Positions 28,414 through 63,872 of a DNA stretch of 64,000 nt are shown piece after piece. Within the stretch, counting starts at the first letter, position 1. Every line of letters begins with the position of its first letter. Under the pieces are notes generated by a model. The model ran no database searches, had not been told where the DNA came from, and saw only the letters and a program-made list of their open reading frames with translations. This DNA is from Polyangiaceae bacterium (GTDB taxonomy: Bacteria > Myxococcota_A > Polyangia > Polyangiales > Polyangiaceae): the NCBI GenBank assembly GCA_020846005.1, contig JADLEQ010000034.1:1-64000 (forward strand). The letters run 5' to 3'. A program made the translations under genes and the position numbers.

Positions 28414-31014
28414 TCAGCCGCAGGTGCCCGACGCGAGGCACCGCTCGCCGGCAGCGCAGGTCGCCGCCCCGCAGACGCAGAGGCCGCTCGCATTGCACGT
28501 CCCGCTGCCGCCGCCGTCACAGTCGCTCGCCTGATCGCAGCGACATGCGGCCGCCTGACACACGAAGCCCGGGGGGCATTCCCGTCCGCACGCCCCGCAG
28601 CTGAAGGCGTCCGTGGCGAGGTCGCGGCAGCCCGGCGGGTCCTGGCAGCAGACGACGGTGTCCGCCCCGGTGCACTTGGCGCCCCCGTTGCACGAGCAGT
28701 CAGAGCCGGAATTGCACGACTCGCCGAACCGGCAGACCTCGTTGATCGGGCACTCGCATTTCCCGGTGCCGCTGTTGCACGTGCCGCTGCCGCCACCATT
28801 GCGGCAGCTGTTGTTGTCGTCGCAGCGACAGACCTCGAGCCCGCCCAGACTGGCGCAGATCTTCCCGTTCTGGGCGTCGCACGAGTTGCTGCACACGCCG
28901 CAGTGGGTCGCGCTGCGGGAGGCCTCGCAGCCGTCGTCGGCGGTGGGGGCCGCCGGGGTCGTGCAGCTCACGCGGCCGAGATCGCACACCGGATCGCATA
29001 CGCCGAGCGAGCAGCTCACGGCAGTGACGTTGGCGCCCGAGCAGGCGTGCCCGCACGCCCCGCAGTCGGTGGCGTCGGTCGCGAGATCCGCCTCGCAGCC
29101 GTCGTCCGCCGCGGGCGCCGCCGGGCGGGAGCAGTTGCCGAGCGTGCCGCTGCAGGCCGAGGTGCAGAGCCCGGCCGCGCAGGTCGCGCCGCCGGTCACG
29201 CCCACGTTCGAGCAGGCTCGCCCGCACCCGCCGCAGTGCGCGGTCGTCGACTGGAGGTTCACCTCGCAGCCGTCGTCGACGGAGGGCGCCGAGGGCTGGC
29301 CGCAGTTGCCCCACCCCGCCGTGCAGGTCGAGTCGCACGCGCCGGCCGTACAGCGCCGCGTCGCGGTGTTGGTGGACGAGCAGGCGCGACCGCACGCGCC
29401 GCAATTGGCCACGTCCGCTCCGCCGTTCAGCTCGCAGCCGTCGTCCGCTGCAGGAGGCGCCGGCTGGCTGCAGTCGAGCCAGGGCGCGGAGCAGAGCGGC
29501 GCGCACAGCCCGCCGGAGCACGCGCGCGTCCCGACGTTGGCCGTGGAGCAGCTTCGCCCACAGGCGCCGCAGTTGTCCGGATCGAACTGGACGTTCTTCT
29601 CGCAGCCGTCGTCCGCCGCGGGCGCGGCCGGGGTGGAGCAGTCGGCCCACCCGGTCGAGCACGTCGGCGCGCACTGCCCGGCCGAGCACCACCGCGCGGC
29701 GGTGTTGGTGGAGGAGCAGACGCGGCCGCACGCGCCGCAGTTCGACGGGTCCGCGTCCACGGCGATCTCGCAGCCGTCGTCCGCCGCGGGCGGCGCGGGC
29801 TGCGAGCAGTTGCCGTACCCAGGCGTGCAGGTCGACGTGCACCGCCCCGCCGCGCACGCCGCCGTCGAGACGTTCACGGTGGAGCAGGCGCGGCCGCATC
29901 CGCCGCAGTTCGCCGCGTCGGTGGCGAGCGCGGTCTCGCAGCCGTCGTCGGGGGACGGCGCGGCGGGCTGCTCGCAGTTGCCGTAGCCGGGCTGGCACAA
30001 GCTGGTGCACACGCCGCCGGAGCAGCTCGCGCTGACGGCGCCCGCGCTCGAGCACGCCCGCTGGCACGCGCCGCAGTGCGCGCTCGACGTGCCGAGGTTC
30101 GTCTCACACCCGTTGGACGCGACGCCGTCGCAGTCCCCCCACCCCGAGTCGCAGACGAGCTGGCACTGGCCCCCCGCGCACGTCCCGGTGGCGTGAGCGC
30201 CGCCGCACGCGTTGGAGCAGTAGCCACAGTGCTGGGCGCTGGTGTCCGTGTTCGTCTCGCAGCCGGGCACGCCGTCGCAGTCCGCGAGCGGAGCGGCGCA
30301 CGGGTTCGCTACGCACTGGCGGTTGACACAGGTGTAGTTCCCGAGGCTGGAGCAATCGGTGCCACACGCGCCGCAGTCGGTGGGCGAGCGGAGATCCGTC
30401 TCGCACCCGGTAGCGTCGTCGCCGTCGCAGTCGTCCCAGCCGACGACGCACGAGTCGACCACGCAGCCCCCCGGCGAGCAGCGCGCGACCGCGTTGGCGA
30501 GCGCGCACCCCAGCCCGCAGCCCAGGCAGTTCGCCTCGTCCTCGTGGACGTTGGTCTCGCAGACCGTGCCGGGGTCACCGTCGCACTCCTCGCGATCGGG
30601 GAGGCACTCATCCGGCGTGCACTGCCCCTGAAGATCACAGCGCGCGGTCGCGGCCGCGAACGAGCAGGGCACGCACGACGGCGATGCGCAGCCGTACGCC
30701 GGATCGTCCGTCCGCGCGCACCCGCCGACGCACGGCTTCTCGCCGGGGCCGCAGCCGCCGTCGGGGGGGGAGTCGGAGGGGGCGTCCGAGGCGTCGATCG
30801 GCGCCCCGCTCGAGCCGCCCGCGCCGCCCGTGCCCGCGATCCCGCCGCTCCCACCGCCGCCGACGGCCCCCGCGCCGCCCGCGCCGCCGCTCGACGCGTC
30901 CGTGCCCGCGTCGGCGCCCGCGCCGCCCGCCGTGCCGACCTCGAACGAGTCGAAATCGTGGGTGCAGTGCGCCAAGAGGCCAGCGAGCGCGAGGCCCGCG
31001 AGCGCGCGCCGCAT
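28414..31014 (-). CDS. Large Cys-rich repeat lipoprotein
   Basis: 866 residues from ATG 31014. Signal peptide MRRALAGLALAGLLAHC with a borderline lipobox (His at -1). A Gly/Ala/Ser/Asp spacer (about 25-85) leads into Cys-rich modules of about 45 residues, each roughly CGxCGxxCSxxN...C..G.C...C..G.G.C..P..P..DDGCE; about ten copies, followed by EGF-like C-terminal modules. No catalytic domain seen. Presumably exported and disulfide-bonded at the outer surface, where it may be structural or adhesive. It overlaps the TPR/PEGA-like gene stop by one base (TGATG). A second such gene pair sits at 60375-62427. Confidence 0.85.
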   Translation of the reverse strand: MRRALAGLALAGLLAHCTHDFDSFEVGTAGGAGADAGTDASSGGAGGAGAVGGGGSGGIAGTGGAGGSSGAPIDASDAPSDSPPDGGCGPGEKPCVGGCARTDDPAYGCASPSCVPCSFAAATARCDLQGQCTPDECLPDREECDGDPGTVCETNVHEDEANCLGCGLGCALANAVARCSPGGCVVDSCVVGWDDCDGDDATGCETDLRSPTDCGACGTDCSSLGNYTCVNRQCVANPCAAPLADCDGVPGCETNTDTSAQHCGYCSNACGGAHATGTCAGGQCQLVCDSGWGDCDGVASNGCETNLGTSSAHCGACQRACSSAGAVSASCSGGVCTSLCQPGYGNCEQPAAPSPDDGCETALATDAANCGGCGRACSTVNVSTAACAAGRCTSTCTPGYGNCSQPAPPAADDGCEIAVDADPSNCGACGRVCSSTNTAARWCSAGQCAPTCSTGWADCSTPAAPAADDGCEKNVQFDPDNCGACGRSCSTANVGTRACSGGLCAPLCSAPWLDCSQPAPPAADDGCELNGGADVANCGACGRACSSTNTATRRCTAGACDSTCTAGWGNCGQPSAPSVDDGCEVNLQSTTAHCGGCGRACSNVGVTGGATCAAGLCTSACSGTLGNCSRPAAPAADDGCEADLATDATDCGACGHACSGANVTAVSCSLGVCDPVCDLGRVSCTTPAAPTADDGCEASRSATHCGVCSNSCDAQNGKICASLGGLEVCRCDDNNSCRNGGGSGTCNSGTGKCECPINEVCRFGESCNSGSDCSCNGGAKCTGADTVVCCQDPPGCRDLATDAFSCGACGRECPPGFVCQAAACRCDQASDCDGGGSGTCNASGLCVCGAATCAAGERCLASGTCG
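28910..30560 (-). repeat. Tandem Cys-rich protein modules (about 45 residues each)
   Basis: Within the lipoprotein gene, the DNA repeats at roughly 140-base spacing. Each unit encodes an acidic DDGCE start and a CGACGRACS-type core. The copies are diverged at DNA level, so this is an old protein-level expansion, not a recent tandem duplication. Confidence 0.75.
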
Positions 31015-32081
31015 CAGAATCGCCCCAGGACGCCGACGGATCGAGGCGTCGCGTAGACCCGCACGCCCTCGCGCGGGCGCGCCGCAGCGCCCGACTCCCG
31101 CCCCGGCTGGTCGAGCAGCCAGAGCGCCACCCCGGCGCCGAGCCCGACCACGCCGACTCCGAGCGACAGGTTCGCGAGGAGCTGCTGCGACGCGCCCGAG
31201 TCGATGTCCGACTGGCGATCGGCGGGACATACCCCTCCGGGGCAATCCGCCTCCAACTCCGCGTAGGTCGAGTTCGCCATCGACCCGAAGACGGCGAAGC
31301 CCACCAGGCCGAGCACCCCGACGCCGCCGGCCACGTACGCGTACGGCCGGAGGCTCGGCCGATCGCCTTTCGCGCCGGGATCCCGCGGCGGTTCGTCCGT
31401 GGACGGCGGAGCGTCGCCCGGCTCGCTCTGCGCCGGCTCCTCGGGCGCGGCGCCCGTCCCGGGGGGCTTCGCGGGGGCGTCGAAATCGAGGCGGACCTTG
31501 AGCCGCTCGCCCTTACGAACCATCACGTCCTGGCGCACCTCGCGGCCGTCCGCTGCGCGCGCGATCACGAGGTGCGGCCCGGGCGCCACCCCGACCGTCG
31601 GCAGGACGTCGGCGGGCACCTCGCGGGTGCCGACCGTCACCACGACGCCCGCGCCGCCGCCCGCCACCTCGATCGCGAGGGCGGCCACGCGCGGCAACAG
31701 CTCGAGCAGCTCCTTCTCCGCCGACTCGGCCGCCGCCGCGTACTTGGGCAGGGACGCGGCGAGCTGGGCGGCCTCGCGCTGGGTCGCGGCGAACTCCTCA
31801 AGCGCGCGCGTGAGCTCGCCCGCGTCCCGGTACGCACGCGCCATCATCATGTGCGCGTTCGGGCTGGCCACCGCCTCGTACGCGAGCTCGAAGGCGGCCG
31901 CCGCTTCCTTGAAACGGCCCGCCTTGAAGTGGTCGACCCCCCGCTGATAGTGCTCGGTCGCGGTCGCCTGCTGCTCCGGCGTCGCGGAATCGGGCGGGGC
32001 GCCGCGCGCGAGGGCGGAGGGGCCGATCGCGAGGGCGGCCAGCAACCCGCCGAGCGAGGCGAGGACGCGGATCGCACGCAT
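31014..32081 (-). CDS. Exported TPR protein with PEGA-like domain and C-terminal membrane helices
   Basis: 355 residues. Signal peptide (MRAIRVLASLGGLLAALAIGPSALA). Two or more TPRs (about 40-110; HYQRGVDHFKAGRFKEAAAAFELAYE, NAHMMMARAYRDAGEL). A PEGA-like beta domain (about 135-195; GVVVTVGTREVPADVLPTVGV, GPHLVIARAADGREVRQ). An acidic/Pro linker, then two hydrophobic segments (AYVAGGVGVLGLVGFAVFG and ANLSLGVGVVGLGAGVALWLL). The same architecture recurs at 61402-62427. Probably a periplasm-facing scaffold; partner role with the Cys-rich lipoprotein is inferred from the overlap. Confidence 0.85.
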   Translation of the reverse strand: MRAIRVLASLGGLLAALAIGPSALARGAPPDSATPEQQATATEHYQRGVDHFKAGRFKEAAAAFELAYEAVASPNAHMMMARAYRDAGELTRALEEFAATQREAAQLAASLPKYAAAAESAEKELLELLPRVAALAIEVAGGGAGVVVTVGTREVPADVLPTVGVAPGPHLVIARAADGREVRQDVMVRKGERLKVRLDFDAPAKPPGTGAAPEEPAQSEPGDAPPSTDEPPRDPGAKGDRPSLRPYAYVAGGVGVLGLVGFAVFGSMANSTYAELEADCPGGVCPADRQSDIDSGASQQLLANLSLGVGVVGLGAGVALWLLDQPGRESGAAARPREGVRVYATPRSVGVLGRF

Positions 32082-32160: not shown

Positions 32161-32868
32161 ATGCTGGCGCGAGTGAAGGCGGTCCCCGACGCCGGAAAGC
32201 CCTCGCCCGGCGGCCCTCCTGCCGACGCCGACGAGGCGCTGGAGCTCACGGAGGACGCCATCGTCGCCGCGCAGACGGCCGCGCACGCGCTGAAGCCGCG
32301 GGCGCGAGTCGCCATCGAGGCCCGATCCATCGTGGTCGCGGACGCTGCGTCCGTCTCCGACGCCCCGCCCGTGGCCGCGTCGCCGGACGGCGGGCGAGGC
32401 AAGCCGCGTGAGCTCGGCGCCTACACGCGCACCGTAGAGAAGACGGTCGTGGCCCAGCGCAAGGCCGGGAGCACGGCGCCGGTGCTGGTGGCCCCGCGGC
32501 GCAAGGGCACCGGCTCGCGCGCCCTGGTCATCTGGGGCGCGGCCGGCGCGGTCGCGTTCGCGCTCGGTGGGGTGTTGTCGCTCGCCTCAGGGGGCAAGCC
32601 AGCGCCCGAGCCCGCCGAGCCCGCCCCGCCGAGCCCCGCCCCGCAGGCGGCCGCCGTCGAGCCCGCCGCCGCCGAGCCGGCGCCGCCACCGTCGGCTGAG
32701 GCAGCCGTGGCGGGGACCGCTGCGGCGCCTTTGCCGAAGGTCAACGCGGCGCAGCTCCCCGTGGAGAAGCCGATCGCCGCGCCGCGCGGCGCTCCGAGAC
32801 CCCGAACCGCCGAGAAGCCGAAGCCGGGCCCGGCGCGACCGCCGAGCGACATCCCCGAAGGTATCTGA
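32161..32868 (+). CDS. Single-pass membrane protein with proline/alanine-rich periplasmic tail
   Basis: 235 residues from ATG 32161. A soluble cytosolic part (1-120), one membrane helix (ALVIWGAAGAVAFALGGVLSLA, about 121-142), and a long Pro/Ala/Glu tail reminiscent of TonB or peptidoglycan-spanning proteins. GTG 32173 is an alternative start (a GAGGAG at 32154-32159 lies nearer the spacing expected for it). No domain recognised. Its stop overlaps the apparent CTG start of selA. Confidence 0.65.
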   Translation: MLARVKAVPDAGKPSPGGPPADADEALELTEDAIVAAQTAAHALKPRARVAIEARSIVVADAASVSDAPPVAASPDGGRGKPRELGAYTRTVEKTVVAQRKAGSTAPVLVAPRRKGTGSRALVIWGAAGAVAFALGGVLSLASGGKPAPEPAEPAPPSPAPQAAAVEPAAAEPAPPPSAEAAVAGTAAAPLPKVNAAQLPVEKPIAAPRGAPRPRTAEKPKPGPARPPSDIPEGI

Positions 32869-34274
32869 CCCTGGAGCGAGGGCGCCTGCCGAAGGTCGAT
32901 CGGGTCGCGCTCGCGCCCGAGCTCGACGAGGCGAGAGCGACGCTCGGGCGGCGCGTCGTCGTGGCGCTAGCACGCGACGCGATCGCGGCGGCTCGCCACG
33001 CGACCGCCGACGGGCACCCCCCCGCGACCCTCGACGAAATCGTGGCCGACGTGAGCGCGCGCGCGCGGGCGCGTGGGCGCGCCCGCGTCGTCCCCGCGCT
33101 GAACGCGACGGGGGTCGTGCTGCACACGAACCTCGGGCGCGCACCGCTCCCCGCACCGGCCCTGGCCCGCATCGCGGCGTGCGCGGCGGGTTACGCGAGC
33201 CTGGAGATGGATCTGCCCACCGGCGCGCGCGTCCGCCGCGGCGCGTCGGCGGAGGCGCGCCTCGCTGCCCTCGTCGGCGCGCGCGAGGCGCTCGTCGTGA
33301 ACAACAACGCCGCGGGCGTCCTCCTCGCGCTCTCGGGGATCGCCGCCGGCCGCGAGGTCGTCGTGTCGCGCGGCGAGCTCGTCGAGATCGGGGGCGGGTT
33401 CCGCATCCCCGAGGTGCTGGCTCGCTCGGGGTGCCGGCTGGTCGAGGTCGGCACGACGAACAAGACGCGCGTCGAAGACTTCGAGCGCGCCCTGGGCGAA
33501 CGCACCGCGTGTCTGCTCCGCGTCCACCCGAGCAACTTCCGCATCGAGGGGTACGCCGAGCGCCCCGCGCTCGGCGCCCTCGCCCGCCTCGCGCACGCGC
33601 ACGGGATCCCGATCGTCAAGGACCTCGGCGGCGGGCGCCTCGGCCACGTCGAGTCCCCGTCGCTGCGCGAGGAGCCCACGGTGGAGGCGTGCCTGGCGGC
33701 CGGCGCGGACCTCGTGTGCTTCAGCCTCGACAAGCTCTTCGGCGGCCCGCAGGGCGGCGCCGTGGTCGGGGACGCCGCCCGCGTCCGCGCGCTGCGCGAC
33801 GATCCGCTCGCGCGCGCGCTGCGGCTCGACAAGCTCCGGCTCGCGGCGCTCGAGGCGGTGCTCGACGCCCACGAGCGCAGCGCGACAGAGGAGCTCCCCG
33901 CCCTCGCGATGTTGCTCGCGCCCGCAGAGGCGCTCCTCGCGCGCGTCGAGGCGTGGCGCCAGCGGCTCGGCCCGAGCGACGAGCGCCTGCGCGTGATCGA
34001 GACGACGGCGGCCGTCGGCGGCGGCTCGCTCGCGGAGCTCCCGCTCCCATCGGCCGCGCTCGCGATCGCGGGCGACGACGCCGAGGCGCTCGCGCGAGCG
34101 CTCCGGTGCGGGGAGCCACCGGTCGTCCCCCGGATCGAGCGCGACCGGGTCCTGCTGGACGCGCGCACGATCTCGCCGACCGACGACGAGCGCTTCGTCC
34201 GCGCGGTGGCCGCGGCGCTCGGGGTGACGCTGGCGCCGGCCGCCGCGACCGCTCCGGCGGACCGCCCGGCGTGA
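32865..34274 (+). CDS. selA: L-seryl-tRNA(Sec) selenium transferase (selenocysteine synthase)
   Basis: About 469 residues. It converts Ser-tRNA(Sec) to Sec-tRNA(Sec) using selenophosphate. The SelA signatures are clear: LPKVDRV at the N terminus, LNATGVVLHTNLGRAPL, VVNNNAAGVLLAL, VSRGELVEIGGGFRIPEV, RVHPSNFRIEGY, and the PLP Lys in SLDKLFGGPQGG (about Lys290). The first ATG/GTG in frame is GTG 32961, which would remove the conserved LPKVDRV start. CTG 32865 forms a CTGA overlap with the upstream stop and gives normal length (E. coli 463), so it is the likely start; CTG 32871 is also possible. selB, selC and selD are not in the window. Confidence 0.92.
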   Translation: MTLERGRLPKVDRVALAPELDEARATLGRRVVVALARDAIAAARHATADGHPPATLDEIVADVSARARARGRARVVPALNATGVVLHTNLGRAPLPAPALARIAACAAGYASLEMDLPTGARVRRGASAEARLAALVGAREALVVNNNAAGVLLALSGIAAGREVVVSRGELVEIGGGFRIPEVLARSGCRLVEVGTTNKTRVEDFERALGERTACLLRVHPSNFRIEGYAERPALGALARLAHAHGIPIVKDLGGGRLGHVESPSLREEPTVEACLAAGADLVCFSLDKLFGGPQGGAVVGDAARVRALRDDPLARALRLDKLRLAALEAVLDAHERSATEELPALAMLLAPAEALLARVEAWRQRLGPSDERLRVIETTAAVGGGSLAELPLPSAALAIAGDDAEALARALRCGEPPVVPRIERDRVLLDARTISPTDDERFVRAVAAALGVTLAPAAATAPADRPA

Positions 34275-55681: not shown

Positions 55682-58588
55682 TCAGCCGCGACGACGGCGC
55701 GGCCGGAACGCGAGGCCGAAAGCTGCGAGCAGCGCCAGCACGCCGCTCGTCCCGCTCGAGCTCGACGCGCCGGGGACGGCGCAGCCGCACCCGCCGTCGT
55801 CGCTGGAGCCCGAGCCGCCAGAGACCGGGCCGCCGTCGCCACCGCCGTCCACGGCGCCCGTGCCGCTGCCGCCGGTGCCGCTGCCGCCCGTGCCGCTGCC
55901 GCCCGTGCCGCTGCCGGCGCTGCCGGACGCGCCCGCCGTCGCTCCAGCACCCGCGCTGCCGGACGCACCCGCCGTCGCTCCAGCACCCGCGCTGCCGGAC
56001 GCACCCGCCGTCGCGCCCGCGCCCGCGCTGCCCGACGCACCCGCCGTCGCGCCCGCGCCCGCGCTACCGGACGCGCCCGCCGTCGCGCCCGCGCCCGCCG
56101 CGCCGCCCGCGCCCGCCGTCGCGCCCGCGCCCGCCGTGCCGCCCGCGCCCGCCGTCGCGCCCGCGCCCGCCGTGCCGCCAGCGCCTGCGGTTGCACCCGC
56201 GCCCGCCGTGCCGCCCGCGCCCGCCGTCGCGCCCGCGCCCGCCGTGCCACCAGCGCCTGCGGTTGCACCCGCGCCCGCCGTGCCACCAGCGCCTGCGGTT
56301 GCACCCGCGCCCGCCGTGCCGCCCGCGCCCGCCGTCGCGCCCGCGCCCGCCGTGCCGCCCGCGCCCGCCGTCGCGCCCGCGCCCGCCGTACCGCCGGCGC
56401 CCGAGGTACCCCCCGTGCCGGAGGTCCCGCCCGTGCCACCGCAGCCCGGGTCGGCCACGCCGGGCGTGCAAGCGCCCGAGCCGTCGCACGTGTCACCGAG
56501 CGTGCAAGGATCCGTGTCGTCGCACGGCGTGCCGCCCGCCGAGGGCGCGTACGAGCACGTCCCGCCGCTGCACGAGCCGAGCGCCGCGTAGCACTGGCCG
56601 GGCGGCTGGTCGCAGTTCACGCCGACGCACGGATCGCCGCTGCAAAGGCCGGTGCCCGAATCGCAGCCGAACGCGCACGTCGTGTCGGTGAAGGTGTAGT
56701 CGCAGGTCCCCGACGAGGCGTCGCAGCTGCCGACCGCATCGTAGCTCCGCGAGGTCGTGCCGTTCGCGCAGGCCGCCGGGGGCGGCGTGTTGCACGCGAG
56801 CGGCGTCCCGGTGCACGCGCCGGCGCCGTCGCAGCCGTCCGCGTTCGTGCAGGTGTCACCGTCGTCGCAGGCGGCGCCCGGCGCCTTTGGCGCGTAGGAG
56901 CACGTCCCACCCGAGCAGGTGCCCACGTCCTCGTAGCAGGCGCCCGGAGGCGTGTCGCACGTGACGCCGCTGCACGGATCCCCGTTGCACAGCCCCGTCG
57001 CGCCGTTGCAGCCGAACGTGCACGGCGTGTCCGTCTGGGTAAAGGAGCAGGCGCCCGTCGTGGCGCTGCACGCGCCGTTCGAGTACTCGCGGGACGCGCC
57101 GGCCACGCAGATCGGATCCGGCGGCGTGCACACGACCGTCGAGCCGACGCAGAGGCCGTTGCCGTTGCAGGCGTCGGGCGTCGTGCAGAGATCGCCGTCG
57201 TCACACGACGTGGAGCCGGGCAGCGGCTGGTAGCTGCATGCACCCGTCGACGGCGCGCAGGTGCCGAGCGCCTCGTAGCACCCGCCGTTTGGCGGCGTGT
57301 TGCAGGTGACGGCGGTGCCGGTGACGCAGACACCGCTCTGGCAGGTGTCGAAGCCGTCGCACAGGTTGCCGCTGTCACACGAAGAGCCGTCGATCAGATC
57401 CGTGTGCGTGATCGTCCCGGTGCCGGAGTCGCAGGAGTCCGCGGTGCATGGGTTACCGTCGTCGATCCCCCCCAACGTCGCGCCGCTGCACACTCCTGCG
57501 CCGTTGCAGGTGTCGCCGCTGGTGCAGGCGGAGCCGTCGTCACACCCCGTGCCGGACGGCTGCGCCGGGAACACGCAGGTGCCCGCCACGCAGGCGCCAG
57601 GGCCCGTGTAGCAGTCGTTCGGCGGCGTCGTGCAGCTCACGCCCGTGCACGGGTCGGCGTTGCACGCGAGCGCCGTCGGGTTGCAGCCGAAGGGGCACGT
57701 CGTCTGCGTGGGCGAGTAGTCGCACCCCGAGAGCGCCTGGCAGGTGCCCGGATCGGAGTGCGTGACGAGCGTCGTCGAGTCGAGGCAGTAGTCGACCGGC
57801 GGGGTGTCGCAGGCGAGCGTCCCGCTGCCGACGCACTCCCCCGTGGCGTCGCACACGTCCTGGCCGGAGGTGCAGACGCTCGAGTCGTCGCAGGCGTAGC
57901 CCTGCGCGCGCTGCGGATACACGCACGTCCCGCTCTGGCAGACGCCGTTGCGCTCCCAGCAGTCGGCGTTGGGCGGGCTGTTGCACACCACGCCCTGGCA
58001 CGGGTTCGAACAGACGATGCCCGCGTTGTCGGGGTTCGAGGACGCGGCCTTGAAGAAGAAGTCCGCGGAGTTGTCGTCGGTGTCCGCGTCCGCGGAGCAG
58101 CCTCCGGACTTGCGCTCGTAGGCCTGGTTCTTGTTGAGGGTCATCGGCGCGAGCGGCGTCCCCTCGAGGTACGCGCTGCCCGTGCTCATGCCGACGGCGT
58201 CGATCACGGCGCCGCCGTTCGTCAGGAGGGCGATGCCGCCGTCGTCGGCGATCGACGTGCTGTTGAAGTAGCCGTCCGGCGCGCGGGTCCCCGAGTAGCC
58301 CTGGGGCCCGTTGTTCGCGAACAGCCGGTGCCCTCCGGCGGGGATGGTCACGGAGATCGTCCGGATGAGCGTCGTGTTCCCCGCGCCGTCGCTGACGCGC
58401 AGGCGCGCGTTCGTGAGCGTCACCGGCGAGTTGGAGACGTTGAAGAGCTCGATGAACTCGTCGTTCGCGCCGTTCGGGCCGCGGGTGCGGAACTCGCTGA
58501 TGACGATGGTCGTCGACACGGCGTTCGCCTTGTCCGTCGCCGCGAGCGCGGCCAAGCTGGCGAACAGAACGGGGAATCGAAGCTTCAT
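55682..58588 (-). CDS. Cell-surface LTD and Cys-rich protein with MYXO-CTERM sorting tail
   Basis: 968 residues from ATG 58588. Signal peptide (MKLRFPVLFASLAALAATDKANA). Lamin-tail (LTD) domain (about 28-165; IVISEFRTRGPNGANDEFIE, GGHRLFANN). Cys-rich modules (about 185-710) with motifs like CNTPPNGGCYEALGTC and CDDGDLCTTPDACNGNG. A Gly/Ala/Thr 12-residue repeat spacer (about 725-890). The end DDGGCGCAVPGASS, SGVLALLAAFGLAF, RPRRRRG is the MYXO-CTERM pattern: Cys motif, hydrophobic stretch, Arg cluster. By established family knowledge such proteins are cut and lipid-anchored at the surface by a myxosortase. Ligand unknown; may be adhesive. Confidence 0.9.
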   Translation of the reverse strand: MKLRFPVLFASLAALAATDKANAVSTTIVISEFRTRGPNGANDEFIELFNVSNSPVTLTNARLRVSDGAGNTTLIRTISVTIPAGGHRLFANNGPQGYSGTRAPDGYFNSTSIADDGGIALLTNGGAVIDAVGMSTGSAYLEGTPLAPMTLNKNQAYERKSGGCSADADTDDNSADFFFKAASSNPDNAGIVCSNPCQGVVCNSPPNADCWERNGVCQSGTCVYPQRAQGYACDDSSVCTSGQDVCDATGECVGSGTLACDTPPVDYCLDSTTLVTHSDPGTCQALSGCDYSPTQTTCPFGCNPTALACNADPCTGVSCTTPPNDCYTGPGACVAGTCVFPAQPSGTGCDDGSACTSGDTCNGAGVCSGATLGGIDDGNPCTADSCDSGTGTITHTDLIDGSSCDSGNLCDGFDTCQSGVCVTGTAVTCNTPPNGGCYEALGTCAPSTGACSYQPLPGSTSCDDGDLCTTPDACNGNGLCVGSTVVCTPPDPICVAGASREYSNGACSATTGACSFTQTDTPCTFGCNGATGLCNGDPCSGVTCDTPPGACYEDVGTCSGGTCSYAPKAPGAACDDGDTCTNADGCDGAGACTGTPLACNTPPPAACANGTTSRSYDAVGSCDASSGTCDYTFTDTTCAFGCDSGTGLCSGDPCVGVNCDQPPGQCYAALGSCSGGTCSYAPSAGGTPCDDTDPCTLGDTCDGSGACTPGVADPGCGGTGGTSGTGGTSGAGGTAGAGATAGAGGTAGAGATAGAGGTAGAGATAGAGGTAGAGATAGAGGTAGAGATAGAGGTAGAGATAGAGGTAGAGATAGAGGTAGAGATAGAGGAAGAGATAGASGSAGAGATAGASGSAGAGATAGASGSAGAGATAGASGSAGAGATAGASGSAGSGTGGSGTGGSGTGGSGTGAVDGGGDGGPVSGGSGSSDDGGCGCAVPGASSSSGTSGVLALLAAFGLAFRPRRRRG
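55935..56402 (-). repeat. 36-base tandem repeat encoding Gly/Ala/Thr spacer
   Basis: Thirteen 36-base units in frame, encoding GAGGTAGAGATA (first eight), one GAGGAAGAGATA, then GASGSAGAGATA (last four). It is a flexible spacer between the Cys-rich modules and the sorting tail. Nearly identical units suggest length variation between strains. Confidence 0.92.
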
Positions 58589-58707: not shown

Positions 58708-60321
58708 TCAGCCGCGGCCCGGCTGGCGGCGGAGCTGGCCGAGCGCCTCACTCGCCGCGCGCAGCCCGTGGTCGAACGCCTCCTCGAACAGCGCGACGCC
58801 CGATAGATCGGTGCTGGCGAAGCTCACGCGCGGCAGCGGCTCGGCCGCCTTCCGGCGCGCCGCGCCCCACACGAAGCCCGGGATCGGCGACACCATCGCG
58901 TGCCCCCACCGCCAGAGGTCGACGCGCTCGATCGCGCGCTCGAGCCCGAGGTGCGCCGGCGCGAGTTCGGCCACGATCGCGGCGACCGCCTCCCCGTGCT
59001 CGAGCGCGAGCAGCCGGCGCCGCGCGGCGTCCGCGTCGGCGTCGACCACGGGCAGGTAGTACGTCCAGAGCGTCGGGCCGCGGTCCGCCAGCCGCTGGTG
59101 CGTCGCGACGACGTAGCCGAGCGAGGGCGTGTCGTAGAGCACGTTGTCCCACGCGAACGGGAACCCCCGGCTCGCCGGGCGCTCGCGGAGGTGCAGGTTC
59201 GCGACCAGCCAGGAGCCGTAGCGGAACGCGGCGAGGTGCGCGGGCGGCGAGTCTCGCCATGGCCGCAGGATGCGCGGCACGACGTACTTCGGCGTGGCCA
59301 GGATGACGTACTCCGCCCGCCAGCGCTCCGCCGTGCCGGCCGCCACGTCGGCCACGGCGAGGGATACGGAGTCCGCCTCGGGTGCGACCTCCGTGACGAG
59401 CGCACCGAGCCGCAGCCGGTCGCCCGCGACGCGCGCGAGGTGCGCCGAGAGCCGCCCGTTCCCCTCCGGCCACGTCAAGAACGGCGCGGAGTGCTCTCCC
59501 GGCGTGTCCCGCCTCGACGCGAAATAGAAGAGCATCGCCCACGCGCTCGTCGCCCCGAGATCGAGCCCGTAGTCGTCGAGGCACGCGTACTCGATCCACC
59601 AGCGGAGCGCCGCGGAGCGTAGCCCCCGCTCGTCCAGCCACTGCGCCGCGCTCTGCCGATCGAGCGCCGTCACCTCGGCGGCGTCCGAACAGGCGCGGAC
59701 CGGGAGCGTGAACGCGCGCCTCCCCCGCGCGTCGCGGTAGCGCACCCACGTCGCGACCTCGGCCTCGAACCGCGCGAGCTCTGCGAGATCGGCCGGGCTG
59801 GCGATCGCCGACGGGAAGAGCCCCTCGTGCCACTCGCCGTCGACGAACACTCGCTCCTCGGGCTCGCGGACGAGCGCGCCCTCCCGCCCGCGCGGAGCGT
59901 CGTCCGCGCCCGCGCGCGGGACGAGCGCGCCGAGCTCGTCGAGCAGCGCGACCAGCTCGCGCTGCTCGGCGCGCGGCAGGGGGAGGTAGTGGGCGCCCCA
60001 CGGGTGCGGCACCACTCCGTCCGTCCCGAACGCGCTCGTACCCCCGGCCTGCGGCTCGAGCTCGAACACGCGAAAGTCTCGCTCCCCTGCCCGCTCGAGC
60101 GCCCACGCCGCTGAGAGGCCGCTGGCGCCGCCGCCGACGATGGCGACCCGGACGCGCCGCTCCGGCCCGGCCGCGCGCTCCGGCGTCGCGCCTCGCAGCC
60201 GGTGCCCGATCTCGTGGGACGCACCACGGAAGCTCCCCGGGTACGAGCGCCGCGCGCACCCCGCTACGGCCGCCCCGGCCGCGCCGAACACGCTCATCAG
60301 CAGCTCGCGGCGCGTGAACAT
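58708..60321 (-). CDS. FAD-dependent amine-oxidase-like protein with Tat/lipoprotein signal
   Basis: 537 residues. N terminus MFTRRELLMSVFGAAGAAVAGC combines a twin-arginine motif and lipobox AVAGC (Cys22), so it is probably exported folded with FAD and lipid-anchored. The FAD motif VAIVGGGASGLSAAWALE (about 57-74) is followed by the acidic ELEPQAGG. The C-terminal part has VSFASTDLSGVALFEEAFDHG, the flavin-binding end of amine oxidases/phytoene desaturases. Substrate unknown. ATG 60321. Confidence 0.88.
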   Translation of the reverse strand: MFTRRELLMSVFGAAGAAVAGCARRSYPGSFRGASHEIGHRLRGATPERAAGPERRVRVAIVGGGASGLSAAWALERAGERDFRVFELEPQAGGTSAFGTDGVVPHPWGAHYLPLPRAEQRELVALLDELGALVPRAGADDAPRGREGALVREPEERVFVDGEWHEGLFPSAIASPADLAELARFEAEVATWVRYRDARGRRAFTLPVRACSDAAEVTALDRQSAAQWLDERGLRSAALRWWIEYACLDDYGLDLGATSAWAMLFYFASRRDTPGEHSAPFLTWPEGNGRLSAHLARVAGDRLRLGALVTEVAPEADSVSLAVADVAAGTAERWRAEYVILATPKYVVPRILRPWRDSPPAHLAAFRYGSWLVANLHLRERPASRGFPFAWDNVLYDTPSLGYVVATHQRLADRGPTLWTYYLPVVDADADAARRRLLALEHGEAVAAIVAELAPAHLGLERAIERVDLWRWGHAMVSPIPGFVWGAARRKAAEPLPRVSFASTDLSGVALFEEAFDHGLRAASEALGQLRRQPGRG

Positions 60322-60374: not shown

Positions 60375-61412
60375 TCACAGGCAGCAGAGGGTCGTGGGGC
60401 CCGTCCCCGTCGCGGCGCCCGTCAGCTCGCCGCCGGAGGGCGCGCAGGTTGCTCCCGCGGTGTAACGGATGGACTTCTGCGTCGAGTGGGCAACGTTGGT
60501 GCAGGTGCCGGCCCCGAACGCCGACACCGTTCCCTCGGCGTTGCCAAGGCACCCGGCGTTCGACCAAACGCCCAACGAGCCACCGCACGTTCCCGCGCAG
60601 CTGCATTGGGCGCAGGCCCGCTGGTCGTCGAAGCCCCCGTACACCACGTGGCGGTCGACGAACGTGGACCCCGCGCAGGGCACGTCGCCGGCCTGGAGGA
60701 CGCAGAGGTTCGTGAAGCCCGCGGGCAGCGCCGGCACGCACACGTCGCTGCCGCACCCCGCGCTGGACGGGCTCCCGGGCAGCGCGCAGGCGCGCGCGCG
60801 CGTCGCGAAGGAGGGCGTCGCCTTGGTGATCTCGCCACTCCCCGCAGCAACAGGACAGTCCGCCGTCCCGCCAGGCAGTGCAGCCGAGACGCCAGCCACC
60901 GTGAACCCCGGTTGGCTGGCTAGGTCGACGAAGAGGCACGCGCCCGGACCGGCCGAGCCCGGCGGAGTCAGCTGGAGGGAATCGCCAGACCCGCACCCCA
61001 CCTCCTTCCAGAGGTTCACGACAGGATACACACACGACGACGACGCCGCCGGACCGCACGAGCACGGGCTGCACGACGCGGCGCCAGGATCCAGATCCGT
61101 CGAGCCGTTCAGCCGGTTCGTGGCGTAGTCGCCGCCGCAGTCGGGCGCGGTGCCGGCCGCGGCGCCGAGGAACACCGCCACGGGGCCCTCCCAGCCCCCG
61201 GGGACCGGCGCGCACTGGCCGGCGCAGGAGCCGCCGCCGCCGCCCGTACCGGAGGTGCCGCCGCCCGTACCGGAGGTGCCGCCGCCACCATCCTGAGCGC
61301 CGGTGCCGTAGAAGCGGTCGTCGTCGAACGTGTGCTCGGGGAACGTGCAGGACGCCGCAACCGCCGCGAGCGCGGCGAGCGTGACACGCCGGACGCACGC
61401 CTCAGAACGCAC
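60375..61412 (-). CDS. Cys-rich lipoprotein paired with the TPR/PEGA-like gene
   Basis: 345 residues from GTG 61412, overlapping the previous gene by 11 bases. Signal LAALAAVAASCTFPE (lipobox AASC, Cys near 18). A Gly/Thr/Ser spacer, then a Cys-rich mature domain with CSPCSCGPAASSSCVYP, VNLWKEVGCGSGD and CAQCSCAGTCGG, ending TTLCCL. Probably surface-exposed and disulfide-rich. The parallel frame on the same strand (60331-61398) is an Arg-rich shadow. Confidence 0.75.
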   Translation of the reverse strand: MRSEACVRRVTLAALAAVAASCTFPEHTFDDDRFYGTGAQDGGGGTSGTGGGTSGTGGGGGSCAGQCAPVPGGWEGPVAVFLGAAAGTAPDCGGDYATNRLNGSTDLDPGAASCSPCSCGPAASSSCVYPVVNLWKEVGCGSGDSLQLTPPGSAGPGACLFVDLASQPGFTVAGVSAALPGGTADCPVAAGSGEITKATPSFATRARACALPGSPSSAGCGSDVCVPALPAGFTNLCVLQAGDVPCAGSTFVDRHVVYGGFDDQRACAQCSCAGTCGGSLGVWSNAGCLGNAEGTVSAFGAGTCTNVAHSTQKSIRYTAGATCAPSGGELTGAATGTGPTTLCCL

Positions 61413-62427
61413 CGCGTACTCCGATCCGGCCGGGCTCGACCGAGACACGGACACCCCGACGCGCGGCGGCCGGGGGCTTCTCCTCGGGGCCGGAGCCGGC
61501 GATCAGCAGGACCACGGCGGTCACCGCGCCGGCGACGCCGACACCCGCTGCGATGTTCGTGTAGAGGGCGTAGCGCTCTCCGTCCTGCTGGATCGGCTCG
61601 AGGCGCTCGGGGCAGAGCTCGGCTCGGCAGGTCGCGCCGAGCTTCGCGTCGGCGTCGTTGCGCTGCGACCAGAACCACCCCGCCGCCGCGAACCCGCCGA
61701 CCCCGACCCCCAGCGCCAGCCAGGGGAGCACGGCCATCGTCGAGTCGTCGGCCGGCGGCGGCTGGACGGGGCCGGGGGCGCGCTCCGCGTCGTCGCCCTC
61801 GGCGGGCTCGTCCTCCGGAGGCTCGTCGTCGTCGTCCGCCAGCTTCGGCGGGGCGACGATCTCGACCTCCTTCTTCTCCCCCTCGGCGATCTCGATCGAC
61901 TGCTCGACCTTGCGCCCGTCACGGAGCCTCGCCACGACGGCGTGCGTGCCCGGATCCACCGGGATCTCGCGGCCGAGCTTCGCCGCGCCGACGTCGACGC
62001 CGTCGAGCTGGACGCGCGCGCGCGCCGCCCGCGCGCCGAGCCGGATCACGAGCTTGGGCAGCTTCTGCTCGAGCGCCTCGCGCGCGCGGGTCATCTGCTC
62101 GGCGTCCTTGCTCCCCTGCTCCGTCGCCTCGTGCTCGGCGATGCGGTAGTCGCCGAGCGCCTCCGTGAAGCGCCCGAGGTTCTCCTTGCAGACGCCGATG
62201 TGGAAGCGCACCTGCGGGGTGAGCTTCACCTTGGCGACCTGCTCGAACTTGGCGAGCGCGGCCGCCCAGTCCCCGGCGGCCTCCAGGCTGAGCGCCTGCG
62301 AGAACAAGGTGCGCGCGCGTGCCAGGTCCTCTGGCGTCTGCGCGTGAACGGCGAGCGGCGCGCCCGCCATCGCGCAGGCGAGCGCGGCGAGCAGCACGAA
62401 GCGGGAGGGGCGTCGGAGCGCGGCCAT
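61402..62427 (-). CDS. Exported TPR protein with PEGA-like domain and C-terminal membrane helices (paralogue)
   Basis: 341 residues. Signal peptide (MAALRRPSRFVLLAALACAMAGAPLAVHAQ), TPR region (about 33-100; TLFSQALSLEAAGDWAAALAKF, RFHIGVCKENLGRFTEALGDY), PEGA-like segment (about 130-190; RVQLDGVDVGAAKLGREIPV, GTHAVVARLRDGRKVEQS), acidic linker, and two hydrophobic segments (VLPWLALGVGVGGFAAAGWF, NIAAGVGVAGAVTAVVLLIAG). Same layout as the protein at 31014-32081, also followed by a Cys-rich lipoprotein gene. Confidence 0.85.
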   Translation of the reverse strand: MAALRRPSRFVLLAALACAMAGAPLAVHAQTPEDLARARTLFSQALSLEAAGDWAAALAKFEQVAKVKLTPQVRFHIGVCKENLGRFTEALGDYRIAEHEATEQGSKDAEQMTRAREALEQKLPKLVIRLGARAARARVQLDGVDVGAAKLGREIPVDPGTHAVVARLRDGRKVEQSIEIAEGEKKEVEIVAPPKLADDDDEPPEDEPAEGDDAERAPGPVQPPPADDSTMAVLPWLALGVGVGGFAAAGWFWSQRNDADAKLGATCRAELCPERLEPIQQDGERYALYTNIAAGVGVAGAVTAVVLLIAGSGPEEKPPAAARRGVRVSVEPGRIGVRGAF

Positions 62428-62490: not shown

Positions 62491-63312
62491 TCAGCGGCGG
62501 GTCAGGCGCTCCGCCTCCGCCACCATCCGCGAGTAGGCGTCGAACCGCTCGCTCAGCGAGGAAGGCCCGGGGGGCCGCATGGAGGACGGCGTGGCGCCGG
62601 GGGCCGGGGTGTGCGACCGCGGGGCGTTGGCGCGGGCCGTGAACGCCAGCACGCTCGAGGTGCGGCCGCCGCGATCCACGCGGGCGCCCGTCGCGCCAGC
62701 GAGGAGCTCGGCCAGCTCGTCGAGCTGCGCGGCCGGCGTCGCCGCGAGGATGCCGAGCGGCGCGAAGTCGAACGTGCGCGCGTCGATGCGCCCGACCCAA
62801 CCCACGGTCGCGAAGTGGAGGTCCAGCGCCGCGTAGGCGTCGAGCCCCCCCGCCTGCTGCTCGCGGAAGACGCTGAGATCCGCCGCGCTCGGCACGATGG
62901 CGCGGAAGGTCGAGCTCCCCGTGCTGGGCGACCGGAGGCTCTGCGGCATCACGCCGAGCTGCACCTCGCCCCGGACGAGCACGAGCACCGACCGCCACGA
63001 GACGGACATCTCCCGCCCGCGGAGCACGAGCACGAGCGCGTCCTCTCGCAGCTCGAGCGCGACCAGCGGGACGATCTTTCGCTCCGGATCGTGGCCGACC
63101 GCCGGATCCAGCGCGACGGCGCGGAAGCCGGCGTCGCGGAGCCGCGCGGCGAGCAACTCCGCCTGTCCGGCGTCGCCGACGGCCCGCACGACCCCCCAGG
63201 TGTCCGGCTTGAGCTTGGTCCTGAGGTCGTACGCCACCATGCCGGTGATGCCCGCGAGCCGGGCGTAGTCAGAGTCCGCTCCCTCGAACGGCGGGCCGAG
63301 CAGGACGAGCAT
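62491..63312 (-). CDS. Protein of unknown function
   Basis: 273 residues from ATG 63312 (MLVLLGPPFEGADSDYARLAG). Real coding character: mixed residues, a repeated beta-alpha pattern (TGMVAYDLRTKLKPDTWGVV, AGQAELLAARLRDAGFRAVAL) like a ferredoxin-type fold, then VLVLRGREMSVSWRSVLVLVRGE and a C-terminal Pro/Ser segment. No signal peptide. The open frame extends upstream to 63627 through a Pro/Ala repeat, but the extension looks like repeat DNA, so ATG 63312 is preferred. Confidence 0.7.
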   Translation of the reverse strand: MLVLLGPPFEGADSDYARLAGITGMVAYDLRTKLKPDTWGVVRAVGDAGQAELLAARLRDAGFRAVALDPAVGHDPERKIVPLVALELREDALVLVLRGREMSVSWRSVLVLVRGEVQLGVMPQSLRSPSTGSSTFRAIVPSAADLSVFREQQAGGLDAYAALDLHFATVGWVGRIDARTFDFAPLGILAATPAAQLDELAELLAGATGARVDRGGRTSSVLAFTARANAPRSHTPAPGATPSSMRPPGPSSLSERFDAYSRMVAEAERLTRR

Positions 63313-63644: not shown

Positions 63645-63872
63645 ATGGACAGCATCAACTGGGCTCCGTTCGTAAAGGCGCTGATCGCGACGATCGTCTA
63701 CTCCGTCATGGGGATCGTGATGTTCGCGGCGAGCTTCCTGGTGATCCGCCTGGTCACCCCGTTCTCGCTGCGGAAGGAGATCGAGGAGGACCAGAACAGC
63801 GCCCTGGCCATCCTCATCGGCTCCGTCATCTTGGGGCTGAGCATCATCATCGCCGCGGCGGTCGGCGGCTGA
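63645..63872 (+). CDS. DUF350 small membrane protein
   Basis: 75 residues from ATG 63645 with two membrane helices (KALIATIVYSVMGIVMFAAS and SALAILIGSVILGLSIIIAA) joined by LVIRLVTPFSLRKEIEEDQN. This matches the DUF350 pattern (paired hairpin, conserved charged loop with E-E-D-N). Such proteins often sit next to membrane-linked spermidine-synthase-like genes; a partial frame follows here. Function unknown. Confidence 0.85.
   Translation: MDSINWAPFVKALIATIVYSVMGIVMFAASFLVIRLVTPFSLRKEIEEDQNSALAILIGSVILGLSIIIAAAVGG

Follow-up and report, generated by a model that had tools for sequence, protein, structure and literature searches.

TPR/PEGA-like proteins of the Polyangiaceae as candidate links between surface-type lipoproteins and tailed Ser/Thr kinases

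The GlnH-GlnX-PknG system of Corynebacterium and Mycobacterium comprises a lipoprotein sensor, a transmembrane (TM) protein and a Ser/Thr kinase, and it includes a tetratricopeptide repeat (TPR) domain (PMC9769921, PMC8546545). It may be regarded as the closest working analogue of the module considered here, which is built around a family of TPR/PEGA-like proteins. Two members are encoded in a 64,000-nucleotide stretch from a Polyangiaceae bacterium (the window; positions 1 to 64,000 of GenBank contig JADLEQ010000034.1, assembly GCA_020846005.1, our contig C34 of a 5.7-Mb genome), each by a gene that overlaps the gene of a Cys-rich lipoprotein, and these two pairs may be the outer half of a receptor that is completed by a kinase. 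The likeness to GlnH-GlnX-PknG, a three-gene module with a TPR domain, is one of layout. In that system the cytoplasmic kinase itself contains the TPR domain, and GlnX spans the membrane with four TM segments, whereas in the Polyangiaceae the TPR protein is separate and probably periplasmic, and the kinase has its own TM segment and a terminal peptide.

Ser/Thr kinases of receptor type that carry TPR, WD40 or FGE-sulfatase domains in the periplasm have been described in Planctomycetota and myxobacteria (PMC11032199); there the sensor domains are fused to the kinase, while here they are separate polypeptides that would be joined through the terminal peptide. Slam translocons likewise have an N-terminal TPR region and an outer-membrane part and are encoded beside a lipoprotein gene, but their DUF560 barrel is not present in the window proteins, and the family studied here is distinguished by its kinase association and by a shared motif at the lipid end of its partner. 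TraA and TraB of Myxococcus outer-membrane exchange resemble the window pairs in that the gene of a Cys-rich surface protein overlaps that of its envelope partner (PMC3325183, PMC11980579); however, TraA carries MYXO-CTERM and TraB is an OmpA-type barrel, whereas the window lipoproteins have an N-terminal lipobox and a TPR/PEGA-like partner. In the open-access full text that we searched, no description of the module was found.

Large myxobacterial genomes encode hundreds of eukaryotic-like kinases, and the signals sensed by most of them are not known. Totals of 317 and 353 such kinases are given for Sorangium So ce56 and Minicystis (PMC8436480), and the genome of the window holds about 96 kinases. 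The association reported here gives many such kinases a specific partner, a peptide-binding-type protein predicted to be periplasmic, often accompanied by a surface-type lipoprotein, and it yields testable peptide-partner pairs. If our reading is right, three proteins would together make up one split receptor, and the match between kinase and sensor would be predictable from sequence alone.

Kinases and lipoproteins as partners of the TPR family

The reading that we favor, and judge somewhat likelier to be right than wrong, is that the Polyangiaceae possess a family of split cross-envelope receptors running from a lipoprotein sensor through a TPR protein to the tail of a kinase; its signaling function, the binding steps and the surface exposure are what we infer. 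The kinase, anchored in the inner membrane by one TM segment, would extend its tail across the periplasm, and its last residues would dock in the groove of the TPR protein. The latter would face the outer membrane and hold its cognate lipoprotein, at the membrane, through the lipid-proximal motif. Ligand binding by the lipoprotein would then alter the occupancy of the tail and, through it, kinase activity.

We surveyed the neighbors of 127 TPR-family genes at 121 loci in 21 genomes, using a codon-usage gene caller (trained per genome where loci sufficed) and taking the flanks of the same loci as background. On the same strand, 59/123 TPR genes have a Ser/Thr kinase gene upstream of them, compared with 14/681 other genes. 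The same was found in G021, a single-contig genome unused before save for three loci, in which 40 further regions were scored (24/41 versus 1/152). Directly downstream, a Cys-rich gene follows 37/125 TPR genes (about 30%) versus 11/659 others, a 17-fold enrichment over background (Fisher p=1e-22), and a lipoprotein gene follows 42/125 versus 60/659; in 23/125 versus 19/659 cases the lipoprotein or Cys-rich gene overlaps. The corresponding figures for G021 are 13/42 versus 7/153 for lipoprotein genes and 5/42 versus 0/153 for Cys-rich genes. Overall, a lipoprotein or Cys-rich gene is found in about 40% of TPR loci, often overlapping the TPR gene, and the loci include kinase-TPR-lipoprotein operons, TPR-lipoprotein, lipoprotein-TPR and kinase-TPR pairs, and loners. 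Both partners, the kinase upstream and the lipoprotein or Cys-rich gene downstream, flank the TPR gene in 28 of the 121 loci, and at neither window copy.

The earlier note had proposed a search of the full genome for more TPR/PEGA-like genes beside Cys-rich lipoproteins. The enrichment stands and a majority does not: the Cys-rich gene is a strongly enriched yet minority neighbor, and the kinase is the more constant partner (48 to 59%). A role as helper of Cys-rich cargo consequently does not hold for the family at large, most TPR genes having no Cys-rich neighbor (88/125, and 37/42 in G021), the outcome that the earlier note had named as refuting. The pairing itself is not due to chance, given the enrichment of Cys-rich genes and the orthologous pairs in other genomes. 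We also rejected the idea that the pairs are orphan repeats, since their synteny is conserved.

Nearly all TPR-linked kinases have one TM segment some 320 to 480 residues in, then a Pro/Ala/Lys-rich tail of about 80 to 120 residues that ends in a short conserved C-terminal peptide (for example DPGF, DFGI, DFGGRR, EDLGF, DFGY, NPFDRRH or YRPSGI). Among 21 kinases of the same genome picked as lying outside the TPR set, about five have a TM segment and a tail, and one of these actually adjoins a TPR gene. At one locus of this genome (L078, contig C96, 4437-7397, minus strand), a TPR-PEGA region is fused to a TonB-dependent receptor (Plug and barrel) and lies 3 bp after a tailed Ser/Thr kinase; this fusion could possibly be a direct kinase-receptor link.

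TPR domains are known for binding C-terminal peptides. For 106 kinase-TPR pairs, we compared the similarity of the last six kinase residues with that of the partners. It correlates with TPR-protein similarity (r=0.44; 0.38 with kinase-domain similarity removed, p=5e-4), whereas the correlation with the kinase domain, given the TPR protein, is only 0.085. When the TPR protein is divided, the signal falls on the TPR domain (partial 0.39) and not on the PEGA-like domain (0.04) or the TM hairpin (-0.08), and it declines in tail windows farther from the kinase C-terminus (0.13, 0.085, 0.02, 0.005). The correlation persists among different-genome pairs alone (0.45), with the most similar TPR pairs excluded (0.38), inside the Gly-2 class (0.42) and in the remaining pairs (0.40). 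This pattern suggests selection on a contact between the terminal peptide and the TPR domain. Bolder, and in our estimate somewhat short of an even chance, is the proposal of a periplasmic C-terminal-peptide code, by which dozens of kinases per genome would be wired to cognate outer-membrane-anchored TPR/PEGA proteins through the last five to six tail residues, and each TPR protein to its cognate lipoprotein sensor through the motif after the lipidated Cys. If true, this code would amount to a modular, specificity-coded, cross-envelope receptor-kinase system.

Lipoproteins and TPR proteins of the window and its relatives

The arrangement reported by the earlier note, a TPR/PEGA-like gene overlapping a Cys-rich lipoprotein gene, is present twice in the window, at the positions that the note gave, with the following features:

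31014-32081, minus strand: copy-1 TPR/PEGA-like protein, 355 aa, with signal peptide and TPRs, then a beta domain and a hydrophobic hairpin of two helices (Cys pair at the tip), and C-terminus ...VGVLGRF
28414-31014, minus strand: copy-1 Cys-rich lipoprotein, 866 aa, 123 Cys, with tandem units of about 56 aa (..DDGCE..D..NCGxCGRxCS..)
30937-30966, minus strand: copy-1 lipid-proximal motif CTHDFDSFEV; clade form C-x-x-D-[YF]-x-x-[FY]-[DES]
61402-62427, minus strand: copy-2 TPR/PEGA-like protein, 341 aa
60375-61412, minus strand: copy-2 Cys-rich lipoprotein, 345 aa, 26 Cys, GTG start
61305-61349, minus strand: copy-2 lipid-proximal motif CTFPEHTFDDDRFYG; clade form C-x-[FVAM]-P-[DE]-x-x-[FY]

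In both copies the TPR gene comes before the lipoprotein gene, with an overlap of 1 bp (TGATG) in copy 1 and 11 bp in copy 2, and translational coupling within the pair is supported. The two TPR proteins align over 327 aa with 30% identity (E=4e-18), by which we count them as true paralogs, and both combine a signal peptide and TPRs with a beta domain, a hydrophobic hairpin of two helices and the C-terminal sequence VRVxPxxxGVxGxF. The contrast drawn in the earlier note between a constant TPR partner and a very variable lipoprotein also stands: within the copy-2 clade alone, the lipoproteins range from 114 to 1054 aa. The copy-2 lipobox is canonical (VAAS-C), and that of copy 1 (LLAH-C) has an atypical His at position -1. 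The repeats of the copy-1 lipoprotein are of the type found in MXAN_6577-like proteins (NF041328, C_rich_MXAN6577), although the protein itself scores below the curated cutoff (55.2 bits over six stretches, against 100 bits); a related TPR-partnered lipoprotein, L113, passes it with 184.6 bits. The AlphaFold model of the copy-2 lipoprotein has a predicted local distance difference test score (pLDDT) of 33, and no fold was read from it.

Across the family, the bodies of the linked lipoproteins are diverse, including Cys-rich repeats (many), FGE-sulfatase (several), Kelch, FG-GAP and lyase-type propellers, or nothing recognizable. TPR-linked lipoproteins in which a lipobox was found tend to have in common the stretch immediately after the lipidated Cys; its most frequent form is C-x-x-[VIL]-[LAVI]-G-[ILD]-[DE]. 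A profile built on this stretch separates TPR-linked from other lipoproteins with a leave-one-genome-out area under the curve (AUC) of 0.89 (p=4e-15), and, trained on the earlier set only, it gave an AUC of 0.76 in the untouched G021 (p=0.005). The motif co-varies with the TPR domain (partial 0.23) and the membrane hairpin (0.26), and not with the PEGA-like domain. Other large Cys-rich or repeat proteins were seen in passing. At L061 (1774-7215, minus strand) and L063 (11581-17001, plus strand), proteins of about 1800 aa directly follow TPR paralogs; one of them carries slime-mold-type Cys repeats and MYXO-CTERM, the other 14 FG-GAP_2 and 11 disintegrin-like stretches. In the window itself, 55682-58588 (minus strand) encodes a 968-aa Cys-rich protein with a lamin-tail domain, a long low-complexity stretch of the AGATAGAGGTAGAG type and a MYXO-CTERM-like end without an NCBIfam score.

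Pfam TPR matches in the window proteins are weak and below threshold (best E 1.5e-5). Taken with the AlphaFold helices and the structural matches, they place the window proteins among TPR proteins. The copy-2 model (36 sequences) comprises a signal segment, five TPR helices at residues 32-122 (pLDDT about 97 across them), a beta domain at 125-190, a disordered linker, a long helical hairpin at 231-310 with two conserved cysteines at its tip (C267 and C272), and a C-terminal beta hairpin of low confidence. The nearest structures to the TPR model are CHIP, PP5, FKBP51 and the peptide-binding domain of prolyl hydroxylase, with Z scores of up to 15.8 against TPR domains; these predicted matches to a peptide-binding fold are consistent with tail docking but generic. 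Dicarboxylate-clamp residues as in Hsp70/90 co-chaperones, namely Lys/Asn, Asn and Lys/Arg in the three A-helices, were sought by eye on the alignment; the second-repeat Asn is present in one subgroup (..LNLADC..), the other clamp positions not being evident, and the likeness is one of fold only. The structural comparisons, which mainly covered the TPR part, gave no fold for the hairpin or the beta domain. For PEGA (PF08308), a Pfam search to E=1 found nothing in the two window proteins, whereas five paralogs exceed its cutoff (L073, L077, L078, L079 and L080), and the beta domain of the window proteins is PEGA-like by homology and model only. Neither window TPR protein has a Pfam barrel match or a DUF560 beta-barrel, in whose place the copy-2 model has the helical hairpin; three paralogs have, instead of this anchor, a barrel or barrel-like region of outer-membrane type.

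The TPR domain is probably periplasmic, because these proteins carry a signal peptide and because in some paralogs a TonB-dependent receptor or barrel follows the TPR-PEGA part. The tip of the hairpin is acidic (positive in only 10/152 proteins) and has at least two Cys in 134/152, and its C-terminal flank is basic, a charge pattern that would fit an outward-facing tip and hence perhaps the outer membrane. As a separate observation, the last residue is Phe or Trp in 153/168 family members, where it closes a predicted beta hairpin, and this recalls the last strand of outer-membrane barrels, even though most members have no barrel. The genome of the window encodes more than 20 paralogs and other family genomes tens; among 95 genomes drawn across the phylum, strong members (E<=1e-60) occur in 9, all of the same class. 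The closest named relatives of the copy-2 protein are in Polyangiaceae, including Sorangium, Polyangium and Minicystis.

Alternatives to a split receptor

Several observations weigh against a split receptor. Neither partner is adjacent to 45/121 TPR genes, neither window copy adjoins an intact kinase, and some unlinked kinases carry such tails too (L253, L255, L261 and L267). A motif expression fixed ahead of any look at G021 gave no significant result in that genome (4/13 versus 2/22, p=0.12), where only the profile score and an after-the-fact C-x-x-hydrophobic-hydrophobic rule reached significance. The generic nature of the TPR fold matches belongs here as well, as does the hairpin, whose acidic Cys-pair tip and basic flank match neither a normal inner-membrane hairpin, which has a cytoplasmic tip, nor a well-known outer-membrane anchor. 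Finally, inheritance of whole operons can itself yield co-variation, a concern that the kinase-domain control lessens and does not remove. A rival explanation is that the genes are co-inherited and co-expressed neighbors only, spread by tandem cassette expansion without forming a physical complex. The family is indeed hugely expanded by duplication, and duplicated cassettes carry correlated sequences; yet the co-variation is limited to the last six kinase residues and the TPR domain, survives the kinase-domain control and holds across genomes, and in Sorangium the classes remain matched even where the order of the genes has changed. We hold this to be the most improbable of the alternatives.

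The suggestion of the earlier note that the TPR protein assists the assembly or export of surface lipoproteins can be given a Slam-like form, in which it recognizes the lipoprotein encoded next door and delivers it to the outer membrane or through it, the kinases being co-regulated extras. Lipoprotein genes adjoin 34 to 40% of TPR genes, often overlapping them, otherwise unrelated lipoproteins have the lipid-proximal motif in common, and three paralogs end in a barrel or barrel-like region; moreover, Slam genes, with their TPR and barrel, also pair with adjacent lipoproteins in about 52% of clusters (PMC5449769). Even so, we consider this explanation unlikely: the kinase is the commoner neighbor, 30 TPR genes have a kinase and no lipoprotein, and most members, as well as the window proteins by Pfam, have no barrel. 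The strongest co-variation is that of the kinase tail with the TPR domain, which points to signaling and not to export. The TPR protein may nonetheless act as an export helper for the lipoprotein half of the module. The name Slam-like exporters was dropped for the family, given the missing DUF560 barrel in the window proteins and the kinase link. Less probable than export, and only slightly less remote than mere co-inheritance, is a structural tether, in which kinase tail, TPR protein and lipoprotein would hold the inner membrane together with the outer membrane or a surface layer at particular sites, with no outside-in signaling. The Pro-rich tails are of periplasmic length and resemble that of TonB, the Cys-rich repeat lipoproteins vary greatly in length, and the copy-1 clade has kinase-less or pseudokinase versions; against a tether, most tailed kinases keep a recognizable catalytic domain (all were found by kinase search), and the lipoprotein bodies include ligand-binding-type folds.

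Orthologs and neighbors of the two pairs

Around the two pairs, the window contains the following features:

32161-32868, plus strand: protein of 235 aa encoded divergently by copy 1, with no kinase domain, one TM segment, a Pro-rich tail and C-terminus PSDIPEGI
32845-32865, plus strand: C-terminal peptide SDIPEGI of this gene
58708-60321, minus strand: amine-oxidase-like flavoprotein with N-terminal signal, conserved directly after the copy-2 lipoprotein
62491-63312, minus strand: 273-aa protein without a match in Pfam; its place immediately upstream of the copy-2 TPR gene is conserved in relatives
63645-63872, plus strand: small membrane protein of the DUF350 type; relatives keep it, in divergent orientation, close to the copy-2 operon

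In 10 other genomes, the copy-1 TPR gene is followed by a lipoprotein that starts with the clade form of the motif, mostly with the same 1-bp overlap. Most of these orthologs are preceded by a kinase or pseudokinase ending in [YF]xPxG[IL] (tails RYRPSGI, FRPKGI, YVPLGI, YNPSGI and others). Probable pseudokinases, with a TM segment and a [YF]xPxGI-type tail, lie directly upstream at L160 (5622-7229), L195 (5369-7537) and L153 (2248-4407); in L160 the Pkinase match is confined to the C-lobe, and L160 and L153 each have, in addition, a nearby regular kinase whose end is of this type. The 235-aa protein of the window is probably, by its layout and terminal peptide, the kinase-less counterpart of these kinases and pseudokinases, with the tail kept. 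Its sequence similarity to kinases was tested and is not significant, and the link is made by the layout, the terminal peptide and a same-genus homolog, which stands beside the L331 pair and ends in SDIPDGI. At copy 1, the adjoining kinase of the proposed receptor would thus appear reduced to its TM segment and tail.

Orthologs of copy 2 keep the order 273-aa gene, TPR gene, Cys-rich lipoprotein gene and flavoprotein gene, which is syntenic in several Polyangiaceae. Motifs in this clade include CSFPEHTF, CGFPEYTF, CSVPDFQF (Sorangium), CTFPAIDY (Polyangium) and CTFPDVDY (Minicystis). In the wider clade, the lipoprotein starts with C-x-[FVAM]-P-[DE]-x-x-[FY] or a close form, and the nearest kinase ends in DPGF. 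Tails ending in DPGF go with C-x-FP[DE] lipoproteins in Sorangium, Polyangium and other Polyangiaceae, in Sorangium with rearranged gene order. Copy 2 has no adjacent kinase, so a kinase encoded elsewhere would act in trans, a candidate being the kinase of the same genome that ends in RTDPGF.

Adjoining the copy-1 locus, the window also carries a gene for SelA, the selenocysteine synthase (32961-34274, plus strand), and the organism may therefore make selenoproteins.

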